DNA of 64,000 nucleotides from Hydrogenophaga sp. PBL-H3. Lineage in GTDB: Bacteria; Pseudomonadota; Gammaproteobacteria; Burkholderiales; Burkholderiaceae_C. Positions 58,030 to 62,958 of the stretch are shown here, in pieces. Both the position numbers and the translations under genes were made by a program. The stretch covers positions 62,001 through 126,000 of the forward strand of contig NZ_CP044973.1 in the NCBI RefSeq assembly GCF_010104355.1, written 5' to 3'. Positions within the stretch are counted from its first letter, which is position 1, and each line of letters starts with the position of its first letter. Below the pieces are notes generated by a model. It did not search any database, was not told where the DNA came from, and saw only the letters and a list, made by a program, of their open reading frames with translations.

Positions 58030-59109
58030 GTGGACACAGTCAAGACCCTCAAGCTGCGCATCAAGGACAAGCACGCCAGCGTGCTTCGCGCCATGGCGCG
58101 TGATGTGAACATGGTCTGGAACTACTGCAACGAGACCAGCGCACGCTCGGTACGCGAGAAGGGCAAGTTCCTCAGCGGCTTCGATCTCCAGAAGCTCACC
58201 GATGGCTTCTCCAAATGCGACGGCGTCAAGGTAGGCAGCGCCACAACCCAGCAGGTGTGTGAGGAGTACGCCACAAGGCGCCGCCAGTTCAAGCGCGCCC
58301 GACTCAACTGGCGCGTGTCTAACCCGAAGTCCTCGAAGTATTCGCTGGGCTGGATCCCCTTCAAGTCCCGCGCGGTGCGCTACAAGGGAGGGCAGATCCA
58401 CTTCGCGGGCGAGAAGCTCGGGCTGTGGGACAGCTATGGGCTCGCCCGCTACGAGCTGCGCGCCGGATCATTTGCCGAGGACTCACGCGGCCGCTGGTAT
58501 TTGAATGTGCAGATCAAGGTCGCCGAGCTGGTGGGTCCGCGGCTGCCTGTGACCAGCTCGGTCGGGATCGACCTGGGCCTGAAGACATGCGCCACTGCAT
58601 CTGATGGCCGCAAAATCGAGGGCCGCTTCTACCGAGCCCTGGAGACCAGGCTGGGCATTGCCCAGCGCGCCAGGAAGAAGAGAAGGGTGAAGTCCATCCA
58701 TTCAAAGATCGCGAATCAGCGCAAAGACATGCTGCACAAGTTCAGCACGCAGATCGTTGCTAACAATGCGGCAATCTTTGTCGGTGATGTCTCCAGCGCG
58801 AAGTTGGTGAAGACGAAGATGGCCAAGTCCACGCTGGACGCGGGCTGGTCAATGCTCAAGACGATGTTGGAATACAAGAGCCGTGAGGCCGGTATCGTCT
58901 TTGTAGAGGTCCCGGAGGCCTATACAACCCAGACTTGTTCGTGTTGCGGGGCGCGGCCCCACAGCAGTCCGAAAGGTAGAGCAGGCCTTGGAATAAGAGA
59001 GTGGACCTGCGATGCTTGCGGAGCGGTCCACGACCGAGACGTCAACGCCGCCAGGAACATTCTCGCGCTCGGACATGAGCGTCTCGCAGGAGGAATCCCG
59101 GTCCTTTAG
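58030..59109 (+). CDS. tnpB: TnpB RNA-guided nuclease (IS200/IS605 family)
   Basis: A 359-residue TnpB starting at GTG. The RuvC-I Asp is Asp181 (VGIDLGLK). The zinc finger is TCSCCG...WTCDACG. The RuvC-III Asp is Asp337 in HDRDVNAARN. At the RuvC-II position, where many TnpB proteins have an E-D-L motif, this one reads IFVGDVSSAKL (Gly252-Asp253), a form seen in a distinct TnpB subgroup in which the acidic residue is thought to be supplied from another position. No TnpA is present. The 3' end carries the typical right-end sequence, so the guide RNA would read into the DNA after 59127. Confidence 0.88.
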   Translation: MDTVKTLKLRIKDKHASVLRAMARDVNMVWNYCNETSARSVREKGKFLSGFDLQKLTDGFSKCDGVKVGSATTQQVCEEYATRRRQFKRARLNWRVSNPKSSKYSLGWIPFKSRAVRYKGGQIHFAGEKLGLWDSYGLARYELRAGSFAEDSRGRWYLNVQIKVAELVGPRLPVTSSVGIDLGLKTCATASDGRKIEGRFYRALETRLGIAQRARKKRRVKSIHSKIANQRKDMLHKFSTQIVANNAAIFVGDVSSAKLVKTKMAKSTLDAGWSMLKTMLEYKSREAGIVFVEVPEAYTTQTCSCCGARPHSSPKGRAGLGIREWTCDACGAVHDRDVNAARNILALGHERLAGGIPVL

Positions 59110-59432: not shown

Positions 59433-59693
59433 GTGAGCATCAATACGTTTTCCAGCCGAGACTTCACACGCGATGTCTCAGCGGCCAAGCGCGCAACCGG
59501 CGACGGCCCCGTCTTCATCACAGACCGTGGGCGTCCTGCATTTGCGTTGCTCAAGATCGAGGACTACTACCGCATTGCCGGTCAAAGCGAGTTGTCGCTG
59601 CTCGACGTCATGGACGGTATACCGGGTGGTGAGGGAATCGACTTTGATCCGCCGCGGTTCGATCTCAAGCTCTCCGTCGCGGCGCTGGACTGA
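59433..59693 (+). CDS. phd: Phd-type antitoxin
   Basis: An 86-residue protein starting at GTG with AGGAG seven bases upstream. The N-terminal Phd/YefM DNA-binding part (FSSRDFTRDVSAAKRATGDG and PVFITDRGRPAFALLKIEDY) and a C-terminal acidic tail (GEGIDFDPPRFDLKL) for toxin binding are evident. It precedes a VapC-type PIN toxin by eight bases. ATGT-CGTA-ACAT near 59393 is a candidate operator. Together they make a plasmid-stabilising toxin-antitoxin pair. Confidence 0.85.
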   Translation: MSINTFSSRDFTRDVSAAKRATGDGPVFITDRGRPAFALLKIEDYYRIAGQSELSLLDVMDGIPGGEGIDFDPPRFDLKLSVAALD

Positions 59694-59701
59694 AAGGCGC
59701 A

Positions 59702-60115
59702 ATGTTCGTCCTGGATACCAACGTCATCTCCGAGCTGCGCCACGGGAAACTCAACCAGTCTGCGCAGGTGCGGGCATGGGCTGCAGGGCAGTCCAGCAGC
59801 AGGCTTTTCCTGTCCGCCATCTCCATTCTTGAGCTGGAGATTGGCATCCGCGCACTGGAGCGTCGCACCCCGCCACAGGGCAGTGCGCTGCGCGCTTGGC
59901 TCGCTGGGGTGCGTGTGGCTTTCGCTGGCCGGATCCTCCCGTTTACGGAGAACACGGCGCCCGTGTGCGCTTCGTTACATGTGCCCAACCCTTGTTCAGA
60001 GCGCGATGCAATGATCGCGGCCACAGCCATCGAGCACGGATTTTCAGTGGTTACGCGCAACGTGCCAGACTTTGTGAACACGGGCGTTGGCTTGATCAAT
60101 CCCTGGGATTCCTGA
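59702..60115 (+). CDS. vapC: VapC-type PIN-domain toxin
   Basis: A 137-residue PIN-domain ribonuclease. The acidic active-site residues can be placed: Asp5 (FVLDTN), Glu44 (ILELEIG), Asp102 (ERDAMIAATA) and Asp123 (NVPDF). VapC toxins cleave tRNA or other structured RNA and stop translation when the antitoxin is lost. The gene follows the antitoxin in the usual order. Confidence 0.9.
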   Translation: MFVLDTNVISELRHGKLNQSAQVRAWAAGQSSSRLFLSAISILELEIGIRALERRTPPQGSALRAWLAGVRVAFAGRILPFTENTAPVCASLHVPNPCSERDAMIAATAIEHGFSVVTRNVPDFVNTGVGLINPWDS

Positions 60116-60163: not shown

Positions 60164-61171
60164 TCACTCGCCGGCGTGGTCCTCGGGGAATGGCGTGGGG
60201 AATGGAGAAGGCCGGCGATCCCGCTCAGACCTATGGATAGGTGGTTTCGGCAGCGCGAAGTACTCCATCAAACGAGTCTGGCCATGAGCACCCAGTCCGT
60301 GGCGCCTGCACTTGCCCTCCCTTGCTTCGATCGCAACCTCGCGCGCAGCCGCCACCGTGGTGGCCCCTGACTTCCCCAAGGCCTTGGTGACAGACCAGCC
60401 AAGCCAAGGTGCCAGTTCCTCGACCGCAGCGTCGTCGCCCGGCCGTTTGAGTTCGTTGAGGTTCAGGACGCCGTATTCCCACTGCGCCAAATCACCAGGC
60501 GCTGAGTGAAGCGTCATCCCCACGCACCTGAGCGTTTGCACAAGCTCTCGGATCGAGGCCTTGCCGAACTTCACGTACAGATCTCTCAATGTGTGCGACC
60601 GAAGGGCACCGACACTGTCGATTCCACGTGCGAGGCAGCGATTGACTGTGGCCGGCCGCAGCCCGAGCTCGCTGATTGGGGACTGGTCGCTCAACTTGCG
60701 CTCGGCGGCTCGCGTGCGAAAGGCCACCGCTGCGCGGTCCAGGTCCCGACGCCAAGGTTGATCGCTTTCCTTGAAAGCGAGGCCATGTTTGCCCAGCATC
60801 TCACGCAGCTGCTCGACTGTGGTTCGCCCGACATCCTTCATCCTCATCAGTTCGTCTTCGCTGGCCAGCGCCAAGTCCTCCAGACGGTAGATGTTGATTT
60901 CGAGCATTCGGTGCACCGCAGAACGGCGAATGCCAAGTTCCTCAATCGGTGTGTCGGGCGTTATTGCAGCATCGACGGAGCGCTTCTCATTCGGTGTCCA
61001 TGCGAAGGGTTCGATCTCGAGCTTCGAGGCGTCAACGCCGGCAGCTTCCGCTATGACGATGAAGCGCTTGGAACGCAGGATCCAGTCATGCAGTGCTGCT
61101 AGGCAGGCGGATAGCTGATCTGGTGGCACCGAAAGCAGGTCCCTTGTGCTTTCAAAAGAGGAGCGGCCCAT
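60164..61171 (-). CDS. Protein with two RpoA C-terminal-domain-like modules
   Basis: A 335-residue protein whose start lies six bases after the hipA stop. Residues about 73-135 (PIEELGIRRSAVHRMLEINI, DLALASEDELMRMKDVGRTT) match the helix-hairpin-helix fold of the RNA polymerase alpha C-terminal domain. A second, weaker copy lies at about 165-222 (PISELGLRPATVNRCLARGI). The N-terminal and C-terminal parts are unassigned; the C-terminus is basic and Pro-rich. It could bind UP-element DNA or compete with the polymerase. A third gene of this type in a hip operon is unusual. Confidence 0.6.
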   Translation of the reverse strand: MGRSSFESTRDLLSVPPDQLSACLAALHDWILRSKRFIVIAEAAGVDASKLEIEPFAWTPNEKRSVDAAITPDTPIEELGIRRSAVHRMLEINIYRLEDLALASEDELMRMKDVGRTTVEQLREMLGKHGLAFKESDQPWRRDLDRAAVAFRTRAAERKLSDQSPISELGLRPATVNRCLARGIDSVGALRSHTLRDLYVKFGKASIRELVQTLRCVGMTLHSAPGDLAQWEYGVLNLNELKRPGDDAAVEELAPWLGWSVTKALGKSGATTVAAAREVAIEAREGKCRRHGLGAHGQTRLMEYFALPKPPIHRSERDRRPSPFPTPFPEDHAGE

Positions 61172-61177
61172 ACCCGT

Positions 61178-62512
61178 TCAACCCCCAAAAGTTGTCACGC
61201 GATCTGAGAGATGTTTGGCGATGGTCTCCATCTCCGCGCGGTCCACGCCGGCGCGCTTCGCAAAGCTGGGCCATCGTTCGATCGCTTGCTTGATCCCATG
61301 AACCGTTTGGGGCAGTTCAGCGAGCAGCCCGAACCGATCTGCAACCTCGCGCACATCGCTCAAAGTGATCTGGTCGAAGCGTCCGTTGACCGACATCAGA
61401 TGCTGCTTGATCCATTCGTTGTCGGGGTTGAAGGCGTGCGTGATGTCGTAGGCTGGGGACAACTCCCACCGCCCCCCTTCGCGCAAGAGGAACGAGAAGT
61501 TCTTGGTGTGGTCGTCGTTGTTGACCGCCAGCACATTGAAGACCATGCGGCGCACGAGCTCAACCAGTGCGCCACGGTCCAGCTTGAGCTGCTTTGCCGT
61601 CTGGAATAGCTGGTTGTAGCTGTGGGTGGCGACCTGTTTGTAGTCCAGATGGGCCATGGCGCACAGCGTTTGCATGTGGTGGCGCTGGTCGCCATCACGG
61701 TCGAAACGTTTGGTCATGAAGTGCGCGCGGCCGTTCTCCTCCAAAAGCCGACAGGGCGACATGTCGATGTCGGCTTCGGAGGCCATGAGGTGGTAGGCGT
61801 ACTCAATGCGGCCGTACCCCTTGGACGGACCGAGAGCGTTGTCCTTGCCCATGCCGTCGAGTTTCAGCAGCCAGGCTTCAAACCCCTCAGGGATGTCGAA
61901 CTGGCCTGTACGGACTTCCTCTGTATCGGGATTCCAGGCGATGGTTGCCTTCGCGCGCGCACCGCCCGCCGAGGTGCCCACTTGGATGATCTGTTTGAGG
62001 GCTGCACTGACATGGTCCTCGCCGTCAAAATCTTCCTTCACGGCCTTGCGAGCGGCTTCCACCAATTTCCCCATATGGACAGCGGTGGGCTTGCTGGGCT
62101 TGGGCCCACGCATGGGGCCGAAGGTCAAGGCACCCATGCCACGCCTGCCCATGTAGGCCAGACGGTCCAGTGAAGTGATGGCGTCCTTGGCGATACCCTT
62201 GTCTGCCAACCAGGCGTCGATCAGCGCATTGCCGAAGTCGTCGGGCAGGGCGTCGGCCAGGAGCGCGGGCAGGCGCTTGAATGTCGGCTCGGGCAGTTCC
62301 GTGAAGATGAAGGGCTCACGGGCCTGCGCCAGGGGCATCTGCAGTGGTGCCAGTTCAATGCCGCTCTTCACCCACGTCGGGGCGTATTTGAAGGCGTAGT
62401 AGTTCTTCGTGGGCTCGCGCGCCACGGCGCCCACCAGTTTTCCCCACGCTCTGACCTCTACGGCGTCGACGCTCTGGTAGGGGGTTTGTCGCGTCTTCGT
62501 TGCTGTTGCCAT
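61178..62512 (-). CDS. hipA: HipA-type toxin kinase
   Basis: A 444-residue HipA-fold Ser/Thr kinase. The glycine-rich GTSAGGARAKATIAW, the catalytic-loop region NNDDHTKNFSFLL and the metal-binding YDIT follow in the expected order. In E. coli, HipA phosphorylates glutamyl-tRNA synthetase and causes dormancy. It follows hipB by six bases and precedes the RpoA-CTD-like gene by six bases, so the three form one operon. Confidence 0.88.
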   Translation of the reverse strand: MATATKTRQTPYQSVDAVEVRAWGKLVGAVAREPTKNYYAFKYAPTWVKSGIELAPLQMPLAQAREPFIFTELPEPTFKRLPALLADALPDDFGNALIDAWLADKGIAKDAITSLDRLAYMGRRGMGALTFGPMRGPKPSKPTAVHMGKLVEAARKAVKEDFDGEDHVSAALKQIIQVGTSAGGARAKATIAWNPDTEEVRTGQFDIPEGFEAWLLKLDGMGKDNALGPSKGYGRIEYAYHLMASEADIDMSPCRLLEENGRAHFMTKRFDRDGDQRHHMQTLCAMAHLDYKQVATHSYNQLFQTAKQLKLDRGALVELVRRMVFNVLAVNNDDHTKNFSFLLREGGRWELSPAYDITHAFNPDNEWIKQHLMSVNGRFDQITLSDVREVADRFGLLAELPQTVHGIKQAIERWPSFAKRAGVDRAEMETIAKHLSDRVTTFGG

Positions 62513-62518
62513 GGAGGG

Positions 62519-62830
62519 TCAGTCGAGTTGTGGTTTGCGGGGCTTGTAAGCGCGCTGGCGCGGCGCGTGCTTCTTCAGCATGCTCAGCGGGTCAATCGTC
62601 ACGGCGGGCTGCAACGTGGTGAGCCACTCATCGCGGTGCAGAACACGCAACACCGTCACGAACGAGGCAAGGGTTGAGCCTTCGCCGCTTTCCAGCCTGC
62701 GCACCACGTTGATGGACAGTCCAGCGTTCTTGGCCACGTCCTCAAGCGTGAGGTTCAAACGCAATCTCTGGGCGCGGATCTGCTCCCCCAGTTCGACCAT
62801 GCGTTCACTTGTAGTGCGCAAATCGTTCAT
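62519..62830 (-). CDS. hipB: HipB-type antitoxin and repressor
   Basis: A 103-residue XRE-family protein with a helix-turn-helix at about residues 25-55 (LTLEDVAKNAGLSINVVRRL) and a basic C-terminal tail (KKHAPRQRAYKPRKPQ). It should dimerise, bind the operon operator and hold HipA inactive. The ATG at 62830 is preceded by GGATA, half of the known hip operator TATCC-N8-GGATA, and a further near-match TATCC-GAATTA-GGA lies at 62932-62944. Confidence 0.85.
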   Translation of the reverse strand: MNDLRTTSERMVELGEQIRAQRLRLNLTLEDVAKNAGLSINVVRRLESGEGSTLASFVTVLRVLHRDEWLTTLQPAVTIDPLSMLKKHAPRQRAYKPRKPQLD

Positions 62831-62862: not shown

Positions 62863-62958
62863 TTGGCTATAACAATTCACCGATGAATTCTAATGGAAGG
62901 GCGAAGGGGACGCAACTTGTGTACGAGTAAGTATCCGAATTAGGACTGTTATAGCCAA
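62863..62958. promoter_or_regulatory. 12-bp inverted repeat upstream of hipB
   Basis: TTGGCTATAACA at 62863-62874 is exactly inverted as TGTTATAGCCAA at 62947-62958. Inside lie AATTCA-CCGA-TGAATT and TCC-GAATTA-GGA palindromes. The arrangement may be an operator with facing promoters or a recombination site. The stretch up to 63200 holds nothing else clear. Confidence 0.5.

Follow-up and report, generated by a model that had tools for sequence, protein, structure and literature searches.

A plasmid hipBA locus of Hydrogenophaga sp. PBL-H3 followed by a gene for a predicted tandem alpha-CTD-like protein

In Hydrogenophaga sp. PBL-H3, the conjugative plasmid pPBL-H3_B2-1 (319.5 kb) carries a hipB-hipA pair followed by a third gene, the 335-residue product of which is, by family assignment and predicted fold, like the C-terminal domain (CTD) of the RNA polymerase alpha subunit, RpoA, a fold that binds DNA and protein. 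Judged from its sequence, hipBA is here a plasmid-borne type II toxin-antitoxin pair of the ordinary kind, and the third gene looks like a rare add-on to it and not like part of a new kind of toxin system. The strain is a linuron degrader isolated from soil, and its large plasmid was called unclassified when it was described (PMC7039861). The window referred to below is the whole stretch of plasmid DNA analysed, 64,000 nucleotides in length (bases 62001-126000 of its contig), in which the three genes lie in the order hipB, hipA, third gene on the minus strand (Table 1).

Table 1. Features of the hipBA locus, in window coordinates. The boundaries of modules 1 to 3 are approximate and are our own reading of the predicted secondary structure.
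Feature	Coordinates	Strand	Description
hipB	62519..62830	-	103-aa HTH antitoxin; HTH_31 31.5 bits, HTH_3 29 bits, both above cut-off
hipA	61178..62512	-	444-aa Ser/Thr kinase toxin; Couple_hipA and HipA_C
Third gene	60164..61171	-	335 aa; three predicted alpha-CTD-like (HhH)2 modules; PF03118 and PF14520 above cut-off, AlphaFold2 model, Foldseek
N-terminal helical region	60986..61171	-	aa 1-62, predicted long helix 17-43; common only to the Variovorax homologue
Module 1	60767..60955	-	aa ~73-135; nearest to the RpoA CTD; gap-free alignment
Module 2	60506..60691	-	aa ~161-222; alpha-CTD-like; net charge +4
Module 3	60248..60439	-	aa ~245-308; divergent (HhH)2, GLG hairpin; from predicted fold and homologue alignment
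Arm 1 of inverted pair, TTGGCTATAACA	62863..62874	+	~32 bp upstream of the hipB start; candidate HipB operator
Arm 2 of inverted pair, TGTTATAGCCAA on +	62947..62958	-	perfect match to arm 1

A preliminary description of this DNA had placed a third gene six bases past hipA in a hipBA operon, and the open reading frames bear this arrangement out. The hipB-hipA and hipA-third gene junctions both read TGA-N6-ATG, and because of these 6-nt spacers the three genes likely form one operon. The GC3 of the third gene is 0.69 versus 0.78 for hipA, a difference that hints, weakly, at a different origin. A second toxin-antitoxin pair, consisting of a Phd/YefM-like antitoxin and a PIN-domain VapC toxin (59433-60115, plus strand), converges on the third gene and lies 48 bp from its end, and a RES/Xre pair is situated just outside the window; together with hipBA, these neighbours make up a toxin-antitoxin cluster. 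A further open reading frame, for a TnpB-family RNA-guided endonuclease (58030-59109, plus strand), is flanked by an AAA ATPase/hypothetical gene pair on one side and the vapBC-type pair on the other.

The assignment of hipBA to the type II modules is based on an HTH antitoxin gene standing immediately upstream of the HipA kinase gene, at the 6-nt gap, and on the presence of both the N- and C-terminal HipA domains with intact kinase motifs. The top NCBIfam match of HipB was couple_hipB, at a score below the cut-off of that model. In HipA, the Couple_hipA and HipA_C domains (5e-50) were found at 67 bits (PF13657) and 170 bits (PF07804), and the kinase motifs (the GTSAGGARAK loop, NNDDHTKN, and AYDITHAF) are all preserved, the DHxKN and AYD motifs lining up with those of solved HipT and HipA. 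With the type II hipBA modules, such as hipBA of E. coli K-12 and of a K. michiganensis plasmid (PMC11487325), the locus shares the antitoxin-then-toxin order, the HTH HipB, the full-length HipA with its two domains and kinase motifs, and the location on a plasmid; it differs in the extra cistron downstream, which other hipBA loci are not known to have.

The third protein bears the RefSeq name 'helix-hairpin-helix domain-containing protein'. The Pfam model RNA_pol_A_CTD (PF03118) matched it over two stretches with 35 bits (cut-off 23.8) and HHH_5 (PF14520) with 28.2 bits (cut-off 27); module 1 alone scored 25.8 bits against RNA_pol_A_CTD, and the only other gene of the genome above the cut-off of that model was rpoA itself. 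With a profile made from RpoA CTDs only, module 1 reached 27.1 bits, the maximum among shuffled sequences being 4.2 (n=500), while module 2 was borderline (4.5 versus 4.3 in shuffles) and module 3 went undetected; once broader models were used, module 2 matched RpoA as well. All the leading matches in sequence searches of the PDB were RpoA. No match to the RpoA N-terminal domain was found in the third protein, and its score with the NCBIfam rpoA model was far under the cut-off.

An AlphaFold2 model built on a nine-sequence alignment (pLDDT 78) predicted three repeated five-helix modules, preceded by an N-terminal region that includes a helix of 27 residues; no family was found for this region. 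Foldseek ranked RpoA CTDs first for this model (prob 1.00), the match to 9dvt_A having an rmsd of 1.1 A over 59 residues, a TMt of 0.84, and 34% identity at a prob of 1.00. Every Foldseek E-value was at least 0.001, as is to be expected when a match takes up 60 of 335 query residues. The likeness to the alpha CTD claimed in the preliminary description therefore held in all three kinds of comparison (Pfam, PDB sequence, and Foldseek), in each of which RpoA CTDs outranked other HhH proteins; its count of two modules did not hold, since the predicted fold has three and 'double' undercounts them. A generic HhH repair protein as the best match of modules 1 and 2 was rejected on the same grounds. 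A weak match to BREX PglW covers module 1, inside the alpha-CTD-like stretch, and gives no ground for labelling the protein a defence protein. The third protein thus resembles the RpoA CTD in the fold and sequence of module 1, and similarly in module 2, and differs from RpoA in having no alpha NTD, in carrying three tandem copies, and in the replacement of R265 in modules 1 and 2.

The residues at the alpha-CTD contact positions were read from an alignment to the host's own RpoA, with which module 1 aligns without gaps. R265 is substituted in modules 1 and 2, the position of K298 is occupied by T in module 1 and by A in module 2, and that of N294 by D in module 1; the hairpin glycine G296 is retained. 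In the alpha CTD, R265, N294, and K298 contact the UP element (PMC5101437). The net charge is -3 for module 1, which is acidic, +4 for module 2, which is basic, and +1 for the whole protein. Module 1 also lacks most of the other DNA-contact residues of the 265 determinant, so that alpha-CTD chemistry is largely lost. With R265 gone from modules 1 and 2, DNA reading of the alpha-CTD/UP-element type by the third protein is unlikely. Binding to the DNA backbone or to protein is plausible.

Protein binding is what the NusA acidic repeats bring to mind: AR1 and AR2 are likewise tandem (HhH)2 domains of alpha-CTD type, serve as protein-binding modules in NusA, and formed the main weaker, non-RpoA class in the PDB profile search. 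The third protein could accordingly be a transcription elongation/termination adaptor with tandem domains that take the alpha CTD of polymerase, or another factor, as partner; AR2 of NusA binds the alpha CTD (PMC7171158), and modules 1 and 2 keep the fold but lack R265. We consider this reading unlikely, as the similarity to NusA is weak (E 0.14-0.5), the NusA core domains are absent, and the model of the NusA C-terminal acidic repeat, TIGR01954, gave no match in the third protein and only 13.2 bits, against a cut-off of 48.15, in its Variovorax homologue.

That homologue, WP_162487250.1 of Variovorax sp. WDL1, was the sole full-length relative found. Its plasmid and pPBL-H3_B2-1 were the only ones matching the third protein in a tblastn search of 72,556 plasmids. 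The two proteins are 34% identical, nearly over their full length, which argues that the third open reading frame is a real protein; the N-terminal regions are 39% identical (E 2e-3), and the same three-module architecture is predicted for both. Genomes of 84,980 species, scanned within the limits set by peptide patterns, yielded just the Variovorax strain and one Hydrogenophaga MAG contig, and the gene was absent from all 400 other Comamonadaceae scanned. A profile search found relatives of modules 2 and 3 at seven loci, all within a single genus that belongs to another family of Burkholderiales, and no more in 273 genomes of the class and 298 of the phylum. These partial relatives (L040-L046) are undescribed proteins of 250-300 residues; they contain two alpha-CTD-like modules, and a W-x2-G linker is conserved in them. 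The third gene most likely represents a family of tandem alpha-CTD-like proteins that is rare and has gone undescribed. A phage origin was rejected: no match to the third protein was found in phages and none was confirmed in viral contigs, and the WDL1 homologue gave one insignificant phage match.

The genes around these relatives differ from those at the PBL-H3 locus. The WDL1 gene (L004:7986-8948) lies directly behind ligD, with no hipA nearby, unlike the PBL-H3 gene, which follows hipA; a Ku gene and a gene for an error-prone DNA polymerase are found near it. In our reading of the open reading frames, the seven partial relatives adjoin exopolysaccharide-type genes, with genes for an outer-membrane barrel and for sugar-kinase- or isomerase-type proteins. 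The ligD and Ku neighbourhood, together with module 3 of the WDL1 protein, which has a canonical GIGKSTA hairpin and is where the HHH_5, HHH, and weak RuvA matches of that protein fall, would suit a plasmid-borne HhH protein of DNA repair or structure-specific DNA binding, unrelated to transcription. This is rather improbable, since it is a single neighbourhood, modules 1 and 2 resemble the RpoA CTD more closely than they do any HhH protein of DNA repair, and the PBL-H3 protein has a degenerate hairpin in module 3.

The preliminary description had also suggested that the third gene might tune transcription of the operon or act as part of the toxin system, a view that homologues lying away from hipA would speak against. 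The MAG contig held the only other copy adjoining hipA; over 7,334 bp it does not differ from the plasmid, so it is the same plasmid and not an independent association. HipA relatives turned up in 36 of the 400 other Comamonadaceae and in 18 of the 299 other Burkholderiales that were sampled. We examined 55 further HipA loci, taken from genomes, plasmids, and viral contigs, and none had an open reading frame matching the third protein or an alpha-CTD profile, most of these loci spanning 1.5 kb on each side of hipA, four being cut less than 0.5 kb downstream, and two viral ones being near duplicates. The homologues do lie away from hipA, and the suggested part in the toxin system is without comparative support. 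Membership of the third gene in a conserved hip system was rejected on the neighbourhoods of its homologues and of the other hipA genes; as the homologues are few, the absence of an association with hipA has low power.

It is in the light of this survey that the third protein appears unlikely to be a true component of the toxin-antitoxin system, whether as a mimic of the alpha CTD, bringing RNA polymerase to the hipB promoter or displacing it there, or as a co-antitoxin of HipA or its substrate adaptor. The equal spacers and the fact that rpoA alone shares the RNA_pol_A_CTD match in this genome speak for such a role, as does a precedent: in hipIN, as in hipBST, a Hip kinase has an extra or DNA-binding partner gene, and HipN, a HipS-HIRAN protein, is encoded downstream of its kinase (Gerdes 2021, PMC8262856). 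However, HipA of PBL-H3 is unsplit and has its own N-terminal domain, unlike in hipBST, and a HipS or HIRAN partner was rejected because the domain search of the third protein matched neither. The main text of a survey in the literature, which covered 1,239 Hip kinases, describes no alpha-CTD-like partner and no such organisation. The specific form in which the mimic, made along with the toxin, acts on RNA polymerase or on sigma/activators, whether globally or at the hipB promoter, and so couples kinase expression back to transcription, is argued from the spacing only and is highly improbable.

Upstream of hipB we found a perfect 12-nt inverted pair (TTGGCTATAACA/TGTTATAGCCAA), with arms 72 nt apart, which is a good candidate operator of HipB. 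Type II hipBA modules are autoregulated through palindromic operators at this side of hipB. The 12-mer has no further occurrence in the 4.8-Mb genome, and the chance expectation of the 12-mer in the window at one mismatch is 0.03. The pair is not kept upstream of other hipBA loci, with partial matches solely at two of them (L007 and L015). Scans for promoter and terminator consensus sequences gave results no better than shuffles.

In the reading to which we give about an even chance, the locus is an ordinary plasmid hipBA pair that has acquired an adaptor gene, now its last cistron and probably under HipB control. The third gene would have been captured behind hipA in a single plasmid lineage and would be expressed as the last cistron of an operon that HipB may regulate by binding the inverted pair. 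Its product would be an adaptor binding nucleic acid or the transcription machinery, whether DNA or polymerase: backbone contacts are probably made by the HhH hairpins, chiefly in module 2, which is basic, and at the GxG hairpin of module 3, and module 1 probably offers a surface for protein binding of the kind seen in the alpha CTD or the NusA AR domains. For the toxicity of HipA and its neutralisation by HipB, this protein is expected to be dispensable. HipBA can stabilise plasmids (PMC11487325), and linkage to it could thus favour the keeping of a neighbouring gene. What counts against the captured-adaptor reading is the tight TGA-N6-ATG junction, which is unusual for an unrelated passenger, and the net charge of the whole protein, which is only +1.

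The locus advises caution, in that an operon partner of a toxin is not automatically part of the toxin system. Should the third protein engage polymerase or DNA, this free-standing use of the alpha-CTD fold would be unusual, and a plasmid toxin locus would gain a direct handle on transcription. On present evidence, its main value is to exemplify tandem alpha-CTD-like proteins as a rare family that has gone undescribed.
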